Shown here piece by piece: positions 2,625-22,762 of a stretch of DNA of 35,047 nt. The position numbers were made by a program, and so were the translations under genes. The first letter of the stretch is position 1, and every line of letters begins with the position of its first letter. Source of the DNA: Bacteroidales bacterium (GTDB lineage Bacteria; Bacteroidota; Bacteroidia; Bacteroidales; VadinHA17); contig JADGPT010000007.1 of the NCBI GenBank assembly GCA_017882345.1, positions 1 to 35,047 on the forward strand, given 5' to 3'. Under the pieces are notes generated by a model. The model saw only the letters and a program-made list of their open reading frames with translations, had not been told where the DNA came from and made no database searches.

Positions 2625-3272
2625 TCATATCGGCTCATTTTCAAATTTATTAAGCCATCTTTTAGCATCACGGGGATCAGTAAATTGCCAGAATGATTCA
2701 GATCTTGGTGTGGTTTCTGCTTCAAAACCACTTTTTTCAAATCCATACGTTTCAGTAATTATACTATATTTTCGAAGCCATATCCGTTTCGAAAGTGACC
2801 GGTAGACACTGGCATTTTCCACAGCAACCGGATAGTGTTTTTTGTTATCGTCAGTATAAGCGAAGTTCCATAATTCGTTTGTTGAAATTCTACCCGTACT
2901 CCAGAGTTTAATTACTGCTTTACCTGTTTCCTCATGCCTGAGGTGTCGGGTGTATTCTCCGGTTGGATTATGAGAAATTATCAGGTCGAAATGTTTTGCA
3001 GGTAATAAGTTCAGGATAGTCTTTTCAACCTCATTTCCCATTAATGGCTTTTGTTCAGGGCCATCATCGAGGTCGCCCATAATCCCTTCAGATTTAAGAA
3101 TTTTTAATGCATTGTTAAACCTAAAGGAGCGATCTTTATCTTTTCCCCTGCAAAGACAGACAATAAACCATTTCCAGGCCGGGTGCCTCAGTATTGTCCC
3201 TCCGGCCCATAATGTTTCATCATCGGGGTGAGCTACTATAACTGCAACGGTCTTTGCGGAGAAGGGTGTCAT
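2625..3272 (-). CDS. PIG-L/LmbE-family zinc deacetylase
   Basis: The hallmark zinc-binding motif AHPDDETLWAGG lies near the N-terminus, and the later segment HNPTGEYTRHLRHEETGKAV supplies further histidines of the type that complete the metal site. Family members are Zn-dependent N-deacetylases acting on N-acetylglucosamine conjugates. The frame extends to a TTG at 3287, but the ATG at 3272 (MTPFSAKTVAV) leaves the first beta strand intact and a 16-nt gap after the OmpA gene, so I use it. There is no signal peptide, so it is probably cytoplasmic. Its position between an OmpA lipoprotein and a GT4 suggests that it deacetylates a sugar intermediate of the cluster. The actual substrate is unknown. 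Confidence 0.88.
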   Translation of the reverse strand: MTPFSAKTVAVIVAHPDDETLWAGGTILRHPAWKWFIVCLCRGKDKDRSFRFNNALKILKSEGIMGDLDDGPEQKPLMGNEVEKTILNLLPAKHFDLIISHNPTGEYTRHLRHEETGKAVIKLWSTGRISTNELWNFAYTDDNKKHYPVAVENASVYRSLSKRIWLRKYSIITETYGFEKSGFEAETTPRSESFWQFTDPRDAKRWLNKFENEPI

Positions 3273-10517: not shown

Positions 10518-10970
10518 CTAGAGTGATATGGATTTTGTATTCGCTATATACCATTCTAAGGTTTTTTCTAATTTCTGAGTATGAAAGATTGTGGCAATAA
10601 CCTTCTGTAATCTCATAAAAGCAGTTTCACTCTTAACAATATAATCATAAGCATTATGACGCATACAGTTTATAGCCACCTCAATTTTATCCTGTGCGGA
10701 TAACATCACTACCGGAATATTGGGATTGATTGCTTTTATTTTATCTAAGGTGTGTATTCCATTCATTGCAAATTTATCAACACTGTCGAGATGATAATCC
10801 AGGATGATCAGATCTGGATTATGTGACAAGTTCTCTACACAAAGCTCTCCCGTCGCGAATGTTTCAAGTTTAAAATCGGGATATTGGAGAAATTCAATTT
10901 CCACTAATTTTAAATACATTGCATCGTCTTCTACTATAAAAAGCGTTCTTTTATAATTGGAATTCATCAT
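10518..10970 (-). CDS. Single-domain response regulator (CheY-like receiver)
   Basis: A 150-residue protein consisting of one receiver domain. The acidic pocket is FIVEDD near residue 15. The phosphoacceptor is Asp58 in DLIILDYHLD. The switch residues are in VVMLSAQD, and the conserved Lys is in DYIVKSE. No DNA-binding output domain follows, only a short helical tail, so it must act by protein contact or as a phosphate carrier. The start overlaps the kinase stop by 4 nt (ATGA), which shows translational coupling with the hybrid kinase. It is probably a partner of the HPt domain of that kinase. A second ATG three bases downstream is possible but equivalent. Confidence 0.93.
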   Translation of the reverse strand: MMNSNYKRTLFIVEDDAMYLKLVEIEFLQYPDFKLETFATGELCVENLSHNPDLIILDYHLDSVDKFAMNGIHTLDKIKAINPNIPVVMLSAQDKIEVAINCMRHNAYDYIVKSETAFMRLQKVIATIFHTQKLEKTLEWYIANTKSISL

Positions 10971-13900
10971 TTAGTATTTTTAATCAGGTTAAACTCTTCC
11001 TCCAATTCATCGCATGCTCTATTACAAACATTTTCAACCTGTATAACCAAGTCGTGTATTTTATCTGTCTGTTTCCGGGTGCTGGCATATTCCTGAATTT
11101 TTTTTGCCATATTTTCGAAATCAGCGCTTATTCCCACAATTGAAAACGAGGGGATCATTTTATGTACTGTTGTGTATAATAAATTCCAGTCTTTAGAGAG
11201 TAAGCTTTGGTTCATAATTTTGATTAAAGCTGGAGTTTGTTCCAGATAAAGGGAAATCATCTCCATCATTAAGGAAGGATCGGACTTTGTACGCTGTTTT
11301 AAAAAATCCAGGTTAGTGCATTTTAACTTTATACTTTCATCGTTTAAGATTTCTGTATTTTCGTTTAAAACTATTGTTTTCTTTACAAACCCGACTATTT
11401 TACTATACAATAATCTTTCGTCTACGGGCTTGGCAATGTAATCATTCATACCAACAGCCTTACATTTTGCTAAATCTACGGTGGTTACATCAGCTGTCAG
11501 GGCAATTATGGGGATAACAGAATTCATCGTGTTCCTTATGTATTCTGTAGCTTCAAACCCATTCATTTCAGGCATCTGCAAGTCCATCAAAATAATATCG
11601 TAAGATTTGGCATGAAGCTTTTCGATAGCTATTTTCCCATTGGCAGCAATATCGCATTCAAATCCGAAATCATCCAGGAGTGTTCTCATTAATAATTGGT
11701 TGAGTGCAATATCTTCTACAACCAGCACTTTTACGTTTGTGATTTCAGTATCTAATTCAACTATTTCAGGTTCTATTTCAGCATCCGCTTTCGTTTGCCT
11801 GAAAGTCAAAATAAAACTAAAAGTGGAACCCTCGCCAATTTTACTTTTCACAGAAATGCTTCCACCCTGATGTTCCACTAATTGTTTGACAATGGCAAGT
11901 CCTAATCCTGTGCCACCGTACAGTCTGGCAGTACCGCTGGAAGCCTGCTGAAAGTTTTCAAAAATCTTATCTATTTTATCTACTGCTATTCCGATTCCTG
12001 TATCTGAAATGGAAAATTGAATTTTTACTTTCTCTTCATCTTCACTCAGCAATTGAATGCTGACCATAATTTTCCCTTTTGACGTAAATTTGACTGAATT
12101 GCTTACAAGATTTAGAATGATCTGGTGCAAGCGCACAGGATCGCCAATAAGTACCTCAGGAATCTTTTCATCATATTTTTTAACCAATATTAAATTCTTT
12201 TCCTGAATTTTTGTCTCAAACAAATGAAGCATTGCGGATATTGATAACGACATTTTGAAAGGAATCTGCTCAAATGTTATTTTACCGGCATCTACTTTTG
12301 CCAGGTCGAGAATGTCGTTAATGAGTACGATTAAAGAGTCGCCACTAATTTTAATGGCTGTTAGATATTCTTTTTGTTTTGCAGACAAATCTGTTTTCAT
12401 TAACACTTTTGTAAATCCGATAATCGCATTCATAGGAGTGCGGATTTCATGGCTCATATTTGACAGGAACTGTTGTTTCGCCTTCACTGCATTTTCTGCT
12501 ATCAGAGTGGCGTTTTCGGCTTTTATTTTTGCCTCCTCAGCTAATCCAGTTGCCAGTTCGGCAAATACAATCGCTTCTGTCAATTCAGTAGCAATTCTTT
12601 TTTGGTCGGTAATATCTCTGGCCACGACAACTGCGCCAAGTACATTTCCTCTGTCATCCTTATAAACTGATCCATTGAATAATACATCGGTAAGCTTGCC
12701 ATCCTTATGCCGAAGCGTAAGTGGAGAATCGGCTACAGAGCCATTTGCAAAAACTTCCTGATAAACTTCACGGGCTTTTTGCGGCTCGGTGAAATAATCA
12801 AAAAAGTCGGTATCTGTAAGTTTTTCGCGATTTATCCCCATAATATTAGCTGTTGCCTGATTCATATCAGTGATCTTACCTTTGGGGCTGATAGTAACCA
12901 ATGGATCCAGACTTGCTTCAATCAGACTCAGAGAATATTGTGAAGCTAATTTTAATGAATAGCTGATTTTTTCAAGTTCTTTATTTGCAACTGCCCGTTT
13001 TTCTTTTTCTTCGTTTTGATATACAAGTTCTTTGTCAGCAATGATTAACTCAGCTGCCCGTTTTTCTTTTTCTTCAGTTTGATAAATAAGCTCTTTATCA
13101 GCAATGATTAATTCTGCTGCCCGTTTTTCTTTTTCATCGTTTTGATAAATAAGCTCTTTGTCAGCAATGATTAATTCTGCTGCCCGTTTTTCTTTTTCTT
13201 CGTTTTGAAATACAAGTTCTTTGTTTGCAAGAATTAATTCTGCTGCCCGTTTTTCTTTTTCTTCGTTTTGAAATACAAGTTCCTTATTAGCAAGGATTAA
13301 CTCAGCTGCCCGTTTTTCTTTTTCTTCGTTTTGAAATATAAGTTCCTTATTAGCAAGGATTAACTCAGCTGCCCGTTTTTCTTTTTCTTCGTTTTGGAAA
13401 GCAAGTTCTGTATTCGCTATACTTAACTCAGCAGCCCGTTTTTCTTTTTCATCGTTTTGAAAAGCAAGTTCTTTATTAGCAAGTATTAACTCAGCAGCCC
13501 GTTTTTCTTTTTCATCGTTTTGAAAAGCAAGTTCTTTGTTAGCAAGTATTAACTCAGCTGCCCGTTTTTCTTTTTCATCGTTTTGAAAAGCAAGTTCTTT
13601 GTTTGCTATAATTAACTCTGCTGCCCGTTTTTCTTTTTCATCGTTTTGAAAAGCAAGTTCTTTGTTTGCCACTCTTAATTCAGTTGCCCATTTTTGCTCT
13701 GCAGTGTCTCTGGCCACCAATACAGCACCAAGCACTTTGCCACTTTCATCTTTATAAACAGATCCATTGAATAACACTTCGGTAAGCCTACCGTTTTTAT
13801 GGCGAAATGTAAGCGGAGAATCGGTAACAAATCCTTTTGCGAATACTTCCTGGTAAACCTCAAACGCTTTTTGTGGTTCCGTGAAATAATCAAAGAAATT

Positions 13901-14059
13901 TGTGCCAATAAGTTTTTTACGTTTAATACCTGTTATGTCCACTTTTGCCTGATTCATATCAGTAATTATGCCTTCAGTATTGAAAGCAATCAATGGGTCA
14001 AGACTTGCTTCTATTAAACTGCTGGCATATAGAGATTCATGTAACTTTGTTTTTTCCAT
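10967..14059 (-). CDS. Hybrid sensor histidine kinase: PAS, 11x21-residue repeats, PAS, HisKA, HATPase, REC, HPt
   Basis: A 1030-residue soluble kinase; no membrane segment is seen, so it senses in the cytoplasm. Domain order: PAS1 (about 15-123); eleven tandem copies of a unit like AAELILANKELAFQNDEKEKR (125-355), forming a long coiled coil; PAS2 (about 378-487), which is nearly a duplicate of PAS1 (both contain FFDYFTEPQKA); HisKA with His537 in SHEIRTPMNAIIGF; HATPase with N-box HQIILNLVSNSVKF, G1 DTGIGI and G2 GGTGLGLA; a receiver with Asp826 in ILMDLQMPEMNGFEA; and a C-terminal HPt with probable His966 in TTVHKMIPSF. It is therefore a complete four-step phosphorelay in one chain, coupled to the response regulator gene by a 4-nt overlap. 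It follows the AraC gene by 52 bp. Confidence 0.95.
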   Translation of the reverse strand: MEKTKLHESLYASSLIEASLDPLIAFNTEGIITDMNQAKVDITGIKRKKLIGTNFFDYFTEPQKAFEVYQEVFAKGFVTDSPLTFRHKNGRLTEVLFNGSVYKDESGKVLGAVLVARDTAEQKWATELRVANKELAFQNDEKEKRAAELIIANKELAFQNDEKEKRAAELILANKELAFQNDEKEKRAAELILANKELAFQNDEKEKRAAELSIANTELAFQNEEKEKRAAELILANKELIFQNEEKEKRAAELILANKELVFQNEEKEKRAAELILANKELVFQNEEKEKRAAELIIADKELIYQNDEKEKRAAELIIADKELIYQTEEKEKRAAELIIADKELVYQNEEKEKRAVANKELEKISYSLKLASQYSLSLIEASLDPLVTISPKGKITDMNQATANIMGINREKLTDTDFFDYFTEPQKAREVYQEVFANGSVADSPLTLRHKDGKLTDVLFNGSVYKDDRGNVLGAVVVARDITDQKRIATELTEAIVFAELATGLAEEAKIKAENATLIAENAVKAKQQFLSNMSHEIRTPMNAIIGFTKVLMKTDLSAKQKEYLTAIKISGDSLIVLINDILDLAKVDAGKITFEQIPFKMSLSISAMLHLFETKIQEKNLILVKKYDEKIPEVLIGDPVRLHQIILNLVSNSVKFTSKGKIMVSIQLLSEDEEKVKIQFSISDTGIGIAVDKIDKIFENFQQASSGTARLYGGTGLGLAIVKQLVEHQGGSISVKSKIGEGSTFSFILTFRQTKADAEIEPEIVELDTEITNVKVLVVEDIALNQLLMRTLLDDFGFECDIAANGKIAIEKLHAKSYDIILMDLQMPEMNGFEATEYIRNTMNSVIPIIALTADVTTVDLAKCKAVGMNDYIAKPVDERLLYSKIVGFVKKTIVLNENTEILNDESIKLKCTNLDFLKQRTKSDPSLMMEMISLYLEQTPALIKIMNQSLLSKDWNLLYTTVHKMIPSFSIVGISADFENMAKKIQEYASTRKQTDKIHDLVIQVENVCNRACDELEEEFNLIKNTK
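12995..13687 (-). repeat. 63-bp coding tandem repeat (11 copies) inside the histidine kinase
   Basis: Eleven consecutive 63-bp units encode 21-residue heptad-type repeats with the invariant core EKEKRAAEL, followed by a partial twelfth unit (AVANKEL). Neighbouring units are nearly identical in DNA, while units nearer PAS2 share IADKELIYQ variants. This shows expansion by unequal crossing-over or slippage rather than selection at protein level only. Because 21 is a multiple of seven, adding or removing a unit keeps the heptad phase of the coiled coil. Confidence 0.95.
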
Positions 14060-14111: not shown

Positions 14112-14678
14112 TTAATTGCCAATTTCTTCAATCGGTTTTCGTCTTTTATATTTTAGATTTTTGAAATGTGATGGAGTGAGTCCCGTTATTTTTTTAAATT
14201 GAGTGGATAAGTGAGCTACGCTGCTGTAGTGCAACTTCCAGGCTATTTCTGTAAGGGTAAGTTCATGATAAATAATCAGTTCTTTTACACGTTCTATTTT
14301 ATGAGAAATGATGAATTTTTCGATGGTAGTTCCTTGAACTTCAGAAAATAAGTTAGCCAGATAAGTATAGTCGTAATCTAATTTTTCGCTTAAATAGTCA
14401 GAAAAATTAACTTTAGGTAATTCATCTGTATAATGAATCATCTCTATTATTACATTTTTTATCCTTTCAATGAGAACTGCTTTCTTGTCATCCATCAGCT
14501 CCAGTCCTGATCTTTGCAATGCAATTCTTATTTGCTCCCGCTGATCTGATGTGATATTTTCCATAATATCTACGACTCCCATATCAACGAGGATGAAATG
14601 CAGGCCGAGTTTTTTCAATTCTTCTTTCACCAGCATTTTGCATCGCATGCTGACCATATATTTGATAAAGATCTTCAA
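14112..14678 (-). CDS. AraC-type regulator with HMA-like N-terminal domain, degenerate metal motif
   Basis: A 188-residue regulator. Residues 1-65 have the beta-alpha-beta layout of a heavy-metal-associated domain (MKIFIKYMVSMRCKMLVKEELKKLGL), but the first metal-site Cys is Ser (VSMRC instead of CxxC). Residues about 85-180 form an AraC-type double helix-turn-helix with SDYLSEKLDYDYTYLANLF and LTEIAWKLHYSSVAHLSTQFKKITGLTPSHF. The start is TTG at 14678. A downstream ATG (codon 8) would remove the first beta strand, so TTG is preferred. A paralogue lies at 18194-18754. It sits between the AI-2E gene and the hybrid kinase. A single GTAAC half-site at 14729-14733 lies upstream. It is a candidate binder of the shared promoter module. 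Confidence 0.9.
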   Translation of the reverse strand: MKIFIKYMVSMRCKMLVKEELKKLGLHFILVDMGVVDIMENITSDQREQIRIALQRSGLELMDDKKAVLIERIKNVIIEMIHYTDELPKVNFSDYLSEKLDYDYTYLANLFSEVQGTTIEKFIISHKIERVKELIIYHELTLTEIAWKLHYSSVAHLSTQFKKITGLTPSHFKNLKYKRRKPIEEIGN

Positions 14679-17435: not shown

Positions 17436-17591
17436 CTATAGAATTTTTCTTCCTTGTATGATCCTGAGAATTATTGCAATAAGTGCAATAACCAGGAGTA
17501 TATGTATAATTCCTCCGGCACTGTATCCGATAAATCCAATTGCCCAGGCAATAATCAAAATTACTGCGACGACATAAAGTAAATTTCCCAT
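17436..17591 (-). CDS. DUF5670/Lmo0937-like 51-residue membrane protein (copy A)
   Basis: This gene is too short for the ORF track. The ATG at 17591 opens a 51-codon frame beginning MGNLLYVVAVILIIAWAIGF, continuing with GYSAGGIIHILLVIALIAII and ending RIIQGRKIL. It has two hydrophobic helices around a YSAGGIIH turn. This is the pattern of the Lmo0937/DUF5670 family of tiny membrane proteins. Copy B at 22214-22372 differs at only a few residues, and both are paired with an exported single-TM protein, although gene order within the pair differs. The gap to the preceding gene is 18 bp, so co-transcription from the 18046-18109 promoter is likely. Confidence 0.88.
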   Translation of the reverse strand: MGNLLYVVAVILIIAWAIGFIGYSAGGIIHILLVIALIAIILRIIQGRKIL

Positions 17592-17609
17592 GATTTTGAT
17601 TTTAATTGT

Positions 17610-17924
17610 TTATAATAAAATAACAATCAATAAAATAATGAGAACAAGCGCACCGATTGAAATATAACCGTAACCATGGTGATGCCTTGTGGTTATTTCA
17701 ACCTGTTTATTTTTCTTATTGTTTGAACTCAATGTTGTCTTATCTACAGTGTTTAGTCCGTCCATTCTTTTGAGCATGGATCTGACTTCAACTGATTCAA
17801 CAGGTTCCGGTGCTTTTGTAACCGTTAAAGATGAAGGTTTCTCAGTAGTTGCAGCAACTGACTGAAGCGGTAGAAACGTAAATGATAAGCATGTTGCCAA
17901 TAAACAGTAGATAATTTTTTTCAT
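17610..17924 (-). CDS. Exported small protein with C-terminal membrane anchor (copy A)
   Basis: A 104-residue protein. The N-terminal signal peptide is MKKIIYCLLATCLSFTFLPLQSVAA. A low-complexity Pro/Thr/Ser linker (PSSLTVTKAPEPVESVEV) follows, then a charged region and a terminal hydrophobic helix, YISIGALVLIILLIVILL, after a His cluster (RHHHGYGY). It is a paralogue of the 109-residue protein at 22433-22762: both share the signal peptide, the PSSL-VTK-PE linker and the C-terminal anchor, while the middle diverges. It is the first gene after the shared promoter module at 18046-18109, with a leader of about 120 nt. The function is unknown; it is probably an inner-membrane envelope protein with a periplasmic domain. 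Confidence 0.82.
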   Translation of the reverse strand: MKKIIYCLLATCLSFTFLPLQSVAATTEKPSSLTVTKAPEPVESVEVRSMLKRMDGLNTVDKTTLSSNNKKNKQVEITTRHHHGYGYISIGALVLIILLIVILL

Positions 17925-18045
17925 TGTGTTTGAATTTAATATTAGTTTACTCGAAATGATAATATACTTTTTTCTAATATGATTTTTAGTGTGCTATTCG
18001 TAATCGCTGAATTACTCTCAATTTGTGAGCAAATCATTTCATTGA

Positions 18046-18109
18046 CAAAGTTAGACTCCTCCGTTCCCTTAACAGTTACATAATTTTTGGAATATGTTAC
18101 ATCATTCAC
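18046..18109 (-). promoter_or_regulatory. Shared 64-nt promoter module, copy 3 (minus-strand stress-like operon)
   Basis: On the minus strand: GTGAATGATGTAAC, then TTATGTAAC with GTAAC cores exactly 21 nt apart (18096-18100 and 18075-18079), 21 nt, then TAACTTTG at 18046-18053, which fits TAnnTTTG perfectly. The interval between repeats (AAAAATTATGTAAC) is also shared with copy 4. The AraC/HMA gene ends only 85 bp upstream, so a regulator gene lies next to its suspected operator. Confidence 0.78.
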
Positions 18110-18193
18110 GTATGTGGATAATAACCAAAAGAGGATACTATCGCCTCGGGAGGTGAGGGACCGGTGATTAGTTCAGGAAACAAGCAATATTAA

Positions 18194-18754
18194 TTACAGG
18201 TTTCCGAGAGAAATCCGTTTTTTATTCTTAAGATTTTTAAAGTGAGATGGTGTCAGCCCGGTCATTTTTTTAAACTGGTTTGACAGATGAGATACACTGC
18301 TGTAATGCAGTTTCCAGGCAATTTCGGTAAGATTGAGCTCATCATATACGAGAAGTTCTTTTACCTTTTCTATTTTATTAGCCAGGTAAAACTGCTCAAT
18401 TGTAGTTCCTTTAACTTCGGAAAAAAGATTGGAAAGGTATGTGTAATTATGATTGAGTTTTTCGCTCAGATAATCGGAAAGGTTTATTTTAATTTGTACA
18501 TCACTATAATGGATCAGCTCAATAATTATGGTTTTAATTTTCTCAACCAGTATTAAATTATTATCATCAATCAGTTCAAGACCGGTCAATTTCAGGGCGT
18601 CACTCAGATTGTCTAATTGATTTTTTGAAATTTTGTCTATTATTTCAACTTCACCCAATTCAACTCTGGTATTATTAATTCCAAGTTTATCAAGTTCGGA
18701 TTGAACTACCATCTTGCACCTGACGCAGACCATATTTTTAATATACAGTTTCAA
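18194..18754 (-). CDS. AraC-type regulator with HMA-like N-terminal domain (intact CxxC)
   Basis: A 186-residue paralogue of the regulator at 14112-14678, of the same length and layout. The N-terminal HMA-like domain reads MKLYIKNMVCVRCKMVVQSE, keeping the CxxC pair that the other copy has lost. The C-terminal AraC helix-turn-helix pair includes SDYLSEKLNHNYTYLSNLF and LTEIAWKLHYSSVSHLSNQF. The start is TTG at 18754, because the next in-frame ATG (codon 8) would delete the first beta strand. A TATATTTG box lies 37 nt upstream. The gene ends 85 bp before the shared promoter module of the next operon. Metal binding or redox sensing by the two cysteines is inference. It is the best candidate for the direct-repeat binding activator. 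Confidence 0.92.
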   Translation of the reverse strand: MKLYIKNMVCVRCKMVVQSELDKLGINNTRVELGEVEIIDKISKNQLDNLSDALKLTGLELIDDNNLILVEKIKTIIIELIHYSDVQIKINLSDYLSEKLNHNYTYLSNLFSEVKGTTIEQFYLANKIEKVKELLVYDELNLTEIAWKLHYSSVSHLSNQFKKMTGLTPSHFKNLKNKKRISLGNL

Positions 18755-18798: not shown

Positions 18799-19031
18799 CA
18801 ATTTTTTATTAGCGGGAAGATGAAAATTAATCTTTTGCAATAAAACTTTATTTTTGATAATAGTATTTCTGGCACTTTCACAAATTGATCGTACAAGCGC
18901 TGGTATTAAATACCATAGCGTGTCATAAATGCATCAATAAACTTTTCACAACAAGAAAACCCATGTTCAACCTGCATTGGTAAAAATTTCTTACTTTTAA
19001 TCCTTCAATATCAAAAACCTAACCTTTAATA

Positions 19032-19268
19032 ATGTCTGATAACAATAAAATTGAAACAACCCTCTGGAAAACAGCCGATAAGTTACGTAACAAAATGTAT
19101 GCCGCAGAGTACAAGAATATTGATTTTAAGGATGCGGTTGATAATGGGGAGGCTTTTGAAGAAAAGATGAAAAAACTGACTTTTGAGCTTAATGAACAGT
19201 TTGAAAAGTCTAATGAACTGCAAATCAAGATAAAAGAAAATCTCTCTAAGATTAAAATTAATATCTGA
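19032..19268 (+). pseudogene. hsdM scar: type I methylase start joined in frame to its end
   Basis: A 78-codon frame whose first third (KIETTLWKTADKLRNKMYAAEYK) matches the N-terminal helical region typical of type I restriction methylase HsdM, and whose last half (DNGEAFEEKMKKLTFELNEQ) matches the usual HsdM C-terminus. The whole SAM-binding core, with its DPACGSG-type and NPPF motifs, is absent. HsdM is normally about 500 residues, so this appears to be a large internal deletion that preserved frame. No hsdS or hsdR is visible. It lies 44 bp upstream of the Mrr-type gene on the same strand. Whether the short peptide is still made is unknown. The identification is from recognised family sequence, not a database search. 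Confidence 0.72.
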
Positions 19269-19312
19269 AGAAATGTCCAGATTTAAAATAACGATAACAA
19301 ATGCAACTACCA

Positions 19313-20239
19313 ATGGCAACAAAAAAAATTGCACCTTCCAGAATGTCTGCAGCAAAGACAATATTTGCCACTTTTCAAATTCTTAAAGATGAAGGAGGTC
19401 AATTGGCAGGTAGACAAGTAATTGAAAGGATAAGGAATACAATTAAGTTTACCGATTGGGAAAGAGAGATCTTAGAAAAATCAGGATATGTCAGATGGGA
19501 AGCAATTCTTCATTTTTATACAGTGGATTGTAATAAAGCTGGTTTCTTATTAAAAAAGAAGGGAATCTGGTACCTTACTGAGGAGGGTGAAAAAGCTATA
19601 GCACTTGGACCAGAAAAACTACTTGTTACAGTTTCAACGGCTTATAGGCACTGGGTTGCGGATAATAAAATTGAAAAAGGAAAAGAAGTGGAAATAGTCG
19701 AACCTACTGAAGTAAATGATTTTGAAGTAAACAGCACACAAACACAGAAAGCAAATATTGATTTACTTGAAGAGCAAGCAATTTCAGGGATAAAAGAATT
19801 CATTAAAAGTAAGAATGCATATGAATTCCAAGATATGGTAGCCGCTCTTTTAAGAGCAATGAATTACCACACACCTTTTATCTCTCCAAAAGGCAAAGAC
19901 GGTGGTCTTGATATTGTTGCGTATAATGATCCTTTAGGGGCAACATCCCCTAGGCTTAAAGTACAGGTAAAGCACAGACCAGAATATAGCGTTCCGGTTG
20001 ATGACATTAGAAGTTTAACAGGTTTGTTAAATAAAGATGGAGATGTTGGAGTATTTGTTACATCTGGATACTTTACCTCAGAAGCCGAGCGCTGCGCCAG
20101 AGAAAGTCATCGCCACATTAAATTATTGGATATTGATAGCTTTATTGGGCTCTGGCAAGAGCTCTACCTAAAACTTTCAGATGAAGATAAAAATATGCTT
20201 CCTTTACACCCAATATATTTTTTAGGCAGTAATGAATAG
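19313..20239 (+). CDS. mrr: Mrr-family type IV restriction endonuclease
   Basis: About 308 residues from the ATG at 19313 (MATKKIAPSR); the frame also offers an ATG at 19301. The N-terminal part (about 15-115) is a winged-helix Mrr_N-type DNA-binding domain with VRWEAILHFYTVDCNKAGFLLKK and GIWYLTEEGEKAI. The C-terminal Mrr catalytic domain shows YEFQDMVAALLRAMNYH, then PKGKDGGLDIVAYNDP and LKVQVKHR, giving the PD-(D/E)xK-type residues Asp204 and Gln-x-Lys (222-224 in 19301 numbering). Such enzymes cut modified, usually methylated, DNA. It follows the hsdM scar, a pairing that recalls defence loci where mrr adjoins hsd genes. All catalytic residues look intact. Confidence 0.92.
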   Translation: MATKKIAPSRMSAAKTIFATFQILKDEGGQLAGRQVIERIRNTIKFTDWEREILEKSGYVRWEAILHFYTVDCNKAGFLLKKKGIWYLTEEGEKAIALGPEKLLVTVSTAYRHWVADNKIEKGKEVEIVEPTEVNDFEVNSTQTQKANIDLLEEQAISGIKEFIKSKNAYEFQDMVAALLRAMNYHTPFISPKGKDGGLDIVAYNDPLGATSPRLKVQVKHRPEYSVPVDDIRSLTGLLNKDGDVGVFVTSGYFTSEAERCARESHRHIKLLDIDSFIGLWQELYLKLSDEDKNMLPLHPIYFLGSNE

Positions 20240-20475
20240 AAAAAGATTTGACGTTTTGTGTTAATAATTGACTGCCTCTTATAAATATTTTGTCTTTTTT
20301 AAACATTAGTGTAAACGGTAAATAACAATGCGAGATTTCGGTAAATAAGGATGCAGGTATTCGGTAAATAAGGATGCAAGTATTCGGTAAATAAGAATGC
20401 AAGTTACCGCTCTTCGTTAAGCTCCCTTTCAAAAGAAAAGTTGGAGGTTTAATAAAAAATAACCCCGCAGCGAGG
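20240..20475. other. Non-coding stretch after mrr
   Basis: No credible gene is seen between the mrr stop and the first terminator. The tandem repeats at 20316-20407 occupy most of it. The 96-aa minus-strand frame in the ORF track simply reads through these repeats and the 3' end of mrr. Confidence 0.6.
20316..20407. repeat. Four 23-bp tandem repeats
   Basis: Units start at 20316, 20339, 20362 and 20385, each exactly 23 bp, with core CGGTAAATAAGGATGCAAGT. The outer two copies are slightly degenerate (AACAATGCGAG; AAGAATGCAAG). There is no spacer between copies, so this is not a CRISPR array. The position in an accessory region 77 bp after mrr suggests a leftover end of a mobile element (IS21-type elements have multiple terminal repeats) or a protein-binding iteron-like array. 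No transposase is visible nearby. Confidence 0.9.
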
Positions 20476-20497
20476 CCCCCGGAAATCCGGGGGTTTT
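20476..20497 (+). terminator. Intrinsic terminator after mrr
   Basis: CCCCCGG and CCGGGGG form a 7-bp GC-only stem around an AAAT loop and are followed by TTTT. It is placed about 240 bp after the mrr stop and just before the small ORF at 20599. It could serve mrr on the plus strand. Confidence 0.8.
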
Positions 20498-20598
20498 ACT
20501 TTTAAAAATGACTTTGACTTTAAACAATGTAACTTTTTTATAATTGTTTCGTAAACATGAAGCATTGAACCAGTTACCATTTAAAAAATTAAAGCAAA

Positions 20599-20814
20599 TT
20601 GAAAACAATTAAATTAATCCCAATTAGCGTTTACTGTTTTTTACGATGTAAATTACTGGAGTGTAGAATCTCTACAATATATGAAAGAATAGATAAACTA
20701 CAAGATTTGAGTTTATACTTTCAAAGTAGATTCGATAAAGATAGGTCTGATAAGATTAACAATAAGATTGAATATCTCTCTAAAAGGAAAATGGACTTAG
20801 TGGCTATTGTTTAA
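20599..20814 (+). CDS. Possible small protein between two terminators
   Basis: A 71-codon frame with a TTG start (MKTIKLIPISVYCFLRCKLL) and no in-frame ATG near the beginning. The first 20 residues are hydrophobic. The rest is charged and helical (ISTIYERIDKLQDLSLYFQS, DKINNKIEYLSKRKMDL). I recognise no family. It is bracketed by a strong terminator 102 bp upstream and another 16 bp downstream of the stop, so it would form its own transcription unit. A GTAAC core at 20529 lies upstream, but the second repeat is at 22 nt and no -7 box fits the module. It could be real or accidental. Confidence 0.3.
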   Translation: MKTIKLIPISVYCFLRCKLLECRISTIYERIDKLQDLSLYFQSRFDKDRSDKINNKIEYLSKRKMDLVAIV

Positions 20815-20829
20815 TAAAACGGAGATTAA

Positions 20830-20854
20830 CCCCTGGAGAAATCCGGGGATTTTG
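20830..20854 (+). terminator. Intrinsic terminator with GNRA-like loop
   Basis: CCCC-T-GGA, GAAA loop, TCC-GGGG, followed by ATTTTG. The stem has seven pairs and one bulged T. It begins 16 bp after the stop of the small ORF at 20599-20814 and so supports transcription of that interval from the left. Confidence 0.65.
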
Positions 20855-21448
20855 CTTTGCCTTAAAGTCTCAAGACAGCTACTTTCAGCATTCACACCCG
20901 AATAAACTGATAACTATTGTTCCATGGTCAATTCAAACTATCAATCCGCTAAGGGAAATATGATTTTTAAGGGCAATCCGTCTTGGGAATATTGACCTAT
21001 TGGCTAAAGTTGATATCTACTTATCCTTTGAGGCAAATAGTAGCTTAAATCCTCAGCGAACAGACAGGTATGCAGGGAGTCAATATATCTTTAACAGGGT
21101 GTGTTATTTTTAAGGGAAATGAAAATAGTTCAACCCACCCGCCATATAAAAGCATTCCTTTTGATACCAAGGAATAAAAAGCTAAAGACAAACAGAGAAG
21201 GACGTTAAAGTTAGATACCGTCAAGGGTAAGTGAATGATGCTATTAATATATATATGTCAGTGCAGGTACAGTATATACCTCTAATCTGTTTCTGTTTCT
21301 GCCTTTGCTTTGTTTTAAGGATAGGATTAAGACCACAGTTTAAAGCCCTAAATCAATCAGTTATCATACCCGTTGGTACAATGGTTGCACATACAGGCTC
21401 GTTATCAATGGTTAATGCACTAACAGACAGCGCATCAACATTTTTAAA
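20855..21448. other. Gene-poor accessory stretch
   Basis: I see no convincing gene in these 594 bases. A GTG-started 73-codon frame (21231-21452) has a hydrophobic N-terminal half but no recognisable family, and its stop lies inside the tRNA-derived repeat. A 7-bp inverted repeat (ATTCCTT/AAGGAAT, 21154-21175) is the only stem of note. The stretch may be decayed mobile DNA beside tRNA-Cys. Confidence 0.5.
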
Positions 21449-21467
21449 TTGAGGTCGGTGGCGGATT
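21449..21467. repeat. 19-bp direct copy of the tRNA-Cys 3' end (att-like)
   Basis: TTGAGGTCGGTGGCGGATT occurs here and again at 21617-21635, where it is the T-arm/acceptor 3' part of tRNA-Cys plus its first flanking bases. The repeats are in the same orientation, 168 bp apart. Copies of a tRNA 3' end are the usual footprint of tyrosine-integrase attachment sites. Confidence 0.85.
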
Positions 21468-21497
21468 ATTTGCATGATCCGTTTTTGGGGAACCTTC

Positions 21498-21619
21498 CAA
21501 CAAAATCCCTGCTGCCTCCGGCAGCTACGGTCTTTTTTGTTTTAACCTCTCAGACCGACAAGTCGGCTTCGTGTTAAAACAAAAAATCCCTCGCACTTCG
21601 TGCTCAAGGGATTTTGTTG
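21498..21619. repeat. Nested inverted-repeat element next to tRNA-Cys
   Basis: An outer 13-bp inverted repeat (CAACAAAATCCCT at 21498-21510 and AGGGATTTTGTTG at 21607-21619) encloses a hairpin GCTGCC-TCC-GGCAGC (21511-21525). It also encloses a 14-bp inverted repeat (TTTTTTGTTTTAAC at 21533-21546, GTTAAAACAAAAAA at 21573-21586) with a CCGAC/GTCGG tip, and a GCAC/GTGC hairpin (21593-21603). Drawn fully paired it is a cloverleaf. Parts can also pair alternatively as terminators. It is bounded by the two 19-bp tRNA-derived direct repeats. Confidence 0.8.
21582..21616 (-). terminator. Likely terminator of tRNA-Cys
   Basis: Read on the minus strand, directly after tRNA-Cys: CAAAATCCCT pairs with AGGGATTTTTTG, with an inner GCAC-GAA-GTGC stem, and the 3' arm is itself a T-run. 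It is part of the nested inverted-repeat element, so the element may double as a terminator. Confidence 0.6.
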
Positions 21620-21690
21620 AGGTCGGTGGCGGATTCGAACCGCCGTAAACGGTTTTGCAGACCGCTACCTAGCCACTCGGTTAACCGACC
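21620..21690 (-). tRNA. tRNA-Cys (anticodon GCA)
   Basis: On the minus strand the acceptor arm GGTCGGT (21690-21684) pairs with ACCGACC (21627-21621). The anticodon loop is CTGCAAA with anticodon GCA, closed by a five-pair stem, and the T-loop is GGTTCGAATCC. The discriminator base is T, as expected for tRNA-Cys, and CCA is not encoded. The gene is 71 nt long. It is intact even though its 3' end is duplicated 168 bp away, as expected when an integrated element restores the tRNA. Confidence 0.96.
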
Positions 21691-22061
21691 GTAAGTTTCG
21701 GGTGCAAAAATAATAAATTTTGTGTTATTTGTTGCTTTTGATCCAATTCACCTGCATATTTTCTCCACCAGCCCGCCATCACCTTCCTATAAACAATAAG
21801 GCTGGAAGAGCTATTCTATTTATTTTCAATAATTTGAGCTATAGGCTCATCTATTATTTCATTTAAAGAAGCAATAACTGTTTTCATATAATTAAGTTCT
21901 TCATTTTGTTTGATATTAATGCTCAAAGCCTGAGTAGCCTGTAGAAATATGCAAAACGGAATATTTCTTACTGAAGATTAACAGCATACAAAATGATATT
22001 TTCATATTCCTAATTGTTTTAGGGTATATAGGTTCGTCCCATGTATTTGCAACTAAGATAT
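21691..22061. other. Intergenic stretch with a possible gene remnant
   Basis: Between tRNA-Cys and the promoter module no intact gene is seen. On the minus strand, roughly 21816-21966, a frame open to an upstream stop encodes IPFCIFLQATQALSINIKQN and continues to IIDEPIAQIIENK before TAG. It lacks a good start codon and looks like the tail of a decayed gene. I recognise no family. Confidence 0.4.
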
Positions 22062-22125
22062 GTAAATAATGTAACTTATTTCAAAAATTATGTAACAGCC
22101 CGGGTAACAAAGGGGCATATCTTTG
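22062..22125 (+). promoter_or_regulatory. Shared 64-nt promoter module, copy 4 (plus-strand duplicate pair)
   Basis: GTAAATAATGTAAC, then TTATGTAAC with GTAAC cores 21 nt apart (22071-22075 and 22092-22096), 21 nt, then TATCTTTG at 22118-22125, a perfect TAnnTTTG box. The 14 bases AAAAATTATGTAAC between and including the proximal repeat are identical in copy 3. An additional GTAAC at 22104-22108 lies in the spacer. The start codon of the DUF5670-like gene is about 90 nt downstream. Confidence 0.78.
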
Positions 22126-22213
22126 TATAAGAAAAATTTAGAGATACAGTTTAATTCTGGAGTAATGAAATTCATTTCTAATATAACATCATAAATTAAA
22201 TAAACTTACAGTT

Positions 22214-22372
22214 ATGGGAAATCTACTTTATGTCGTTGCAGTTATCCTCATTATCGGCTGGGCAATCGGATTTTTTGCCTACAGCGCCGGAGGCATAATA
22301 CATATTCTTCTTGTTATTGCAGTTATTGCAATATTATTCAGAATTATTTCTGGCAGAAAAATACTGGATTGA
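22214..22372 (+). CDS. DUF5670/Lmo0937-like 52-residue membrane protein (copy B)
   Basis: This gene is absent from the ORF track because of its size. The ATG at 22214 opens MGNLLYVVAVILIIGWAIGF, then AYSAGGIIHILLVIAVIAIL and RIISGRKILD. Two membrane helices flank the YSAGGIIH turn. It is nearly identical to copy A at 17436-17591, with changes mostly at hydrophobic positions, so the duplication is real and the protein is under constraint. It is the first gene after promoter module copy 4 and is followed 60 bp later by the exported single-TM paralogue. Its function is unknown; the family is small and often stress-associated. Confidence 0.88.
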   Translation: MGNLLYVVAVILIIGWAIGFFAYSAGGIIHILLVIAVIAILFRIISGRKILD

Positions 22373-22432
22373 TAATCCGGTTATTTTATAAAATAAATCA
22401 TTTTAAATCACTTAATTAATAAAATCAAAATT

Positions 22433-22762
22433 ATGAAAAAATTCATTTTTTGTTTTATGGCAACAATTTTGTCATTAACCTTCCTTCCTGTTCAGTCATT
22501 TGCTGCTATTAAAGAAGATCCTTCCTCTTTACCAGTTACAAAACCGCCTGAAACTACGGAATCAGCAGAAGCTAAAGCTTTGATGCTGAGATTAGACGAA
22601 ATTAAAGCGATGGATATGTCAAAATTGAAATCGACGGAAAAGAAAGATTTGCGTAAAGAAGTACGTTCAATAAAACGCGAGTTTAAAGCTATAAGTGGTG
22701 GCGTTTATATTTCAGCCGGATTATTAATTGTTATACTAATTATTCTTATTGTTTTATTATAA
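22433..22762 (+). CDS. Exported small protein with C-terminal membrane anchor (copy B)
   Basis: A 109-residue paralogue of the protein at 17610-17924. The signal peptide is MKKFIFCFMATILSLTFLPVQSFAA. The linker DPSSLPVTKPPETTESAEAK matches the other copy. A charged helix follows (LRLDEIKAMDMSKLKSTEKK) and then the terminal anchor YISAGLLIVILIILIVLL. The His cluster of copy A is missing here and the middle is more basic. It lies downstream of the DUF5670-like gene with the order of the pair reversed relative to copy A, and is followed by a terminator at 22792. It is probably anchored in the inner membrane with a periplasmic segment. Confidence 0.82.
   Translation: MKKFIFCFMATILSLTFLPVQSFAAIKEDPSSLPVTKPPETTESAEAKALMLRLDEIKAMDMSKLKSTEKKDLRKEVRSIKREFKAISGGVYISAGLLIVILIILIVLL

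Follow-up and report, generated by a model that had tools for sequence, protein, structure and literature searches.

Type I restriction-modification systems offer the closest described counterparts of the locus considered here, and the contribution of the methylase C-terminus to their assembly has been worked out for PacII, in which the C-terminal tails of both M subunits combine with HsdS in a four-helix bundle and deletion of the tail abolishes assembly (PMC9613975). An intact HsdM of 508 aa is encoded in a genome of the same genus as ours (G001, contig C147) and serves here as the reference, and broken hsdM copies occur in several other genomes of the order. A literature search for in-frame hsdM scars returned nothing directly relevant.

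The window, by which we mean the whole stretch of DNA analysed (35,047 nucleotides), contains an open reading frame at 19032-19268 on the plus strand, running from ATG to TGA and encoding 78 aa, that a preliminary description had read as the start of an HsdM joined directly to its end. Alignment with the full-length protein bears this out on both sides: residues 1-28 correspond to residues 1-28 of the reference with 23 of 28 identical, residues 29-78 correspond to residues 459-508 with 30 of 50 identical (60%), neither alignment contains a gap, and the frame stops at the native stop position. What is absent is residues 29-458, that is, 430 codons or 1290 bp, so that the loss itself was correctly recognised and the original figure of about 400 codons was too low. 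The C-terminal match is likewise genuine, and starts earlier than had been thought, at residue 29-30 of the mini-frame (NIDFKDAVDNGEAF, with YIDFKEEEDDGEVF as its counterpart in the reference). The features of the scar and its immediate neighbours are as follows.

18985-19031, plus strand: hsdM leader (18987-19114 is 79% identical to the reference locus); also found in a relic in G031 and before a different hsdM in G068
19032-19115, plus strand: HsdM residues 1-28, the start of the N-terminal domain
19113-19118, plus strand: deletion junction AAG/AAT, where two DNA matches to the reference meet and residues 29-458 are gone
19116-19268, plus strand: last 50 residues of HsdM, the C-terminal tail, with the IDFK mark and the native stop position
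19301-20239, plus strand: intact gene for an Mrr-type restriction endonuclease, an orphan neighbour (Pfam Mrr_cat 2.9e-20, Mrr_N 5.2e-12)
20310-20452, plus strand: truncated left end (first 143 bp) of an IS21-family element, 84-90% identical to copies in G001, G005 and G017, some of them at contig ends

Several further comparisons agree with this alignment. The scores against the reference protein are 122 for the N-terminal part and 138 for the C-terminal part, against maxima of 49 and 60 in 1000 shuffles; the N-terminal part has no second-codon-position differences from the reference; and DNA identity is 79% on either side of the join (window 18987-19114 against positions 3910-3783 of G001:C147, and 19113-19189 against 2495-2418). 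The PADLOC type I methylase model recognises the mini-frame in two separate stretches (E=5e-11), and the Pfam HsdM_N profile (PF12161) scores 16.9 bits, which is under its cut-off of 24.5 because just 23 of 135 profile positions are left. Chance resemblance is ruled out by the shuffles and by a two-sided ungapped match to an intact gene. A PDB hit (3khk) raised the alternative of an HsdM N-terminus with a diverged middle, and this too is ruled out, the segment IDFK...EEKMKKLT aligning without gaps to the C-terminus. The junction falls after codon 28, at 19115/19116, and the two DNA matches meet at 19113-19114, the exact base being uncertain for want of the ancestral sequence. No clear long repeat lies at the join. 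Microhomology was considered, but a join at AAGA would throw the frame out and only the ancestor could settle the matter; we therefore claim no mechanism of deletion.

Both ends derive from one gene. The IDFK at residues 30-33 marks a single HsdM subfamily, represented by the reference and three genomes of the order (L064, L065 and L066); the mini-frame has this mark in common with L024, L064, L065 and L066, and within the same comparison set its N-terminal end is closest to the reference. In addition, the leader of the reference hsdM is matched over some 45 bp 5' of the start codon. Since both ends belong to one subfamily and the upstream leader matches, the frame represents one gene with an internal deletion, and a fusion of ends from two hsdM genes is ruled out. 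The scar thus shares its start, C-terminal tail, stop position and a homologous leader with the intact IDFK-subfamily gene, but differs from it in lacking 430 codons, all SAM-binding and NPPF catalytic motifs, and any adjoining hsdS or hsdR; searching 18851-22600 by tblastn with proteins of related loci, we recognised no remnant of either. The leader has a wider distribution as well, in that window 18951-19039 shares 78% identity with the leader preceding the different-subfamily hsdM in G068 (L042, 7914-7999), as if unrelated type I operons in the genus had an upstream segment in common.

The preliminary description held that all SAM motifs had gone while the frame stayed open, and this is what we find: the NPP[FY] catalytic motif and the SAM-binding motif (Pfam N6_Mtase, PF02384) are absent from the 78 residues, and the frame is intact from ATG to TGA. 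Without these motifs the remnant cannot methylate. Homology to an intact gene combined with the loss of essential motifs identifies a pseudogene, and the mini-frame is very probably just that, an ordinary in-frame deletion remnant of hsdM and not a new small protein. We propose that a type I restriction-modification hsdM, with the leader common to its relatives in the genus, was acquired, probably horizontally; that a deletion, by chance in frame, then removed 1290 bp from between its codons 28 and 459; and that the remnant is most likely inert, remaining open since drift would not yet have reached its few stop-accessible positions. Of the two readings first offered, the in-frame decay product is the one that has gained support, from the intact gene in a relative of the genus, from ends belonging to one subfamily, from broken relics in other relatives and from the debris of mobile DNA around it.

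Broken hsdM copies are found repeatedly. In a genome of the same genus (G031), an N-terminal relic behind the same leader is interrupted by five in-frame stops; G255 retains an N-terminal stub of 33 residues; G254 carries two degraded copies of an internal-deletion relic that ends at a stop; and the copies in G170 and G158 are interrupted. Decay of hsdM, sometimes by internal deletion, is therefore recurrent in the order; some of these breaks are possibly assembly errors, which could not easily be said of the relics with multiple stops. The scar resembles these pseudogenes, some of them internally deleted, in being a broken remnant of an hsdM gene, but those are closed by stops or retain one end, whereas the scar is in frame and has both. 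The relic in G254 apparently lies on the same contig as L012 (JAUWKH010000069.1), a Bacteroidota MAG in which two degraded internal-deletion copies stand near each other at about position 3244.

A conserved small anti-restriction protein would be marked by retention as the same short gene across relatives. No such recurrence is seen: a search of 62 genus genomes and 393 order genomes gave no other equally short frame with both HsdM ends. Two candidates of 51-58 aa, in G224 and G254, were ruled out, the first being cut by a contig end and the second being the stop-containing relic described above. Viral contigs gave no match, matches in a phage collection were few, partial and unannotated, and those on plasmids mostly span one end and largely lie beneath annotated methyltransferases. 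A widespread mini-gene is thus rejected in the genus, order, plasmid, phage and viral-contig searches alike.

The open frame might itself be taken as a sign of function, but it is weak evidence. One in three random deletions preserves the frame, and substitutions are slow to close one of this length: just 34 of the 702 possible single substitutions in the 78 codons create a stop, and in simulated drift a median of 15 changes was needed before the frame closed when substitutions alone were allowed (5 events with 10% indels). With respect to sequence conservation, 25 columns reach at least 85% conservation in intact relatives, and the mini-frame departs at 5 of them, where intact proteins depart at 0-4 of about 20; its profile score is the second-lowest of 24, near the range of intact proteins. 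These departures, barely beyond the intact-protein range, hint that constraint has relaxed and that the deletion is fairly recent. Values of dN/dS against the reference are low (0.077/1.09 for the N-terminal part and 0.37/2.05 for the C-terminal part), but with synonymous sites close to saturation these ratios cannot separate time before the deletion from time after it and would mainly reflect the former. Scans for promoters found no more sites than in shuffles.

Set against decay are the intact frame, the retained leader and the fact that most retained residues are HsdM-like, which leave some function conceivable. The first description had suggested that a peptide for the HsdM dimer or the HsdS contact survives, for example as a decoy, and the strongest form of this idea is a small protein whose C-terminal tail binds HsdS and so acts as a dominant-negative inhibitor of type I systems. 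By analogy with PacII this is chemically conceivable, in that the retained tail corresponds to the segment anchoring M to S (PMC9613975), and its sequence and predicted helix would suit packing on the HsdS coiled coil; a single-sequence AlphaFold model places helices at 3-27 and 32-77 with high local confidence (mean pLDDT 79.5), but a pTM of only 0.44. The leader, too, has been kept. However, the mini-frame has no second copy among the genus and order genomes searched, it has changed at sites that intact HsdM proteins conserve, a G near the C-terminus among them, with no sign of constraint following the deletion, and its own assembly contains no other HsdM of the subfamily: the only other HsdM and HsdS found lie on contig C252 (the only contig of this genome with PF02384), and the HsdM there is of a different subfamily. 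We consider the decoy very unlikely on these grounds. A more elaborate version, in which the HsdS-anchoring tail borne on a short N-terminal helix would poison the assembly of foreign type I enzymes, as a domesticated dominant-negative beside the intact Mrr nuclease, has scarcely any probability in our estimation. Were the peptide made and found to interfere with type I enzymes, it would show one way in which a decaying gene can give rise to an anti-restriction protein.

An assembly artefact, in which a misjoin or a mixture of strains conceals a full-length hsdM, has the fragmentation of the genome in its favour (301 contigs, 87% complete) but is highly improbable, because the remnant is internal to a contig of 35 kb, the assembly has no second hsdM of its subfamily, and otherwise conserved sites are substituted in it, which would not follow from merely misjoining an intact gene.

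The pseudogene scar stands in what looks like mobile-DNA debris, comprising the intact Mrr gene, the truncated IS21-family end and a duplicated tRNA-Cys 3' end, and it is most likely a fairly young gene ruin in decaying mobile DNA. As such, it is a commonplace example of the gain and loss of restriction-modification genes in hypervariable spots rich in mobile elements. The Mrr-type gene was not found in 115 relatives at E<=1e-20 and has one relative, at 54%, among 392 other genomes of the order; its best relatives elsewhere adjoin a helicase-type restriction gene or occupy the end of a restriction-modification operon. A fuller form of the IS21-type element in G005:C44 (L044) combines the same left end with two frames, of 522 and 255 aa, read here as putative istA and istB; the family was assigned by inspection and not by profile search. 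Beyond the IS21-type stub, the tRNA-Cys 3' end is repeated 168 bp from the tRNA itself, as an exact direct repeat of 19 bp (21449-21467 and 21617-21635) that resembles the scar of an integration site; comparable short matches are present in G025:C24 and G034:C14. An empty site was sought in the closest relative (G019), whose contig ends just before the island.

Other features of the region may be recorded here. A stretch of 393 bp (20461-20853), 85-90% identical in G006:C122 and partially present in G005:C203, has terminator-like G-rich ends (20482-20502 and 20838-20858) and is possibly a small non-autonomous mobile element. The island is flanked by an inverted duplicated block of small genes (17440-18113 and 22058-22571), and an AraC-type gene that adjoins tRNA-Cys in G006 and G068 is missing on that side here. 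Two similar short proteins are encoded at 14112-14678 and 18194-18754, and related copies number several per genome within the genus; the second has a DNA-binding domain of AraC type, and its N-terminus gives a weak HMA-like match. Finally, the protein encoded at 10967-14059, which is PAS/histidine-kinase-like, contains about 12 near-identical repeats of 21 residues (AAELILANKELAFQNDEKEKR) in its first half.
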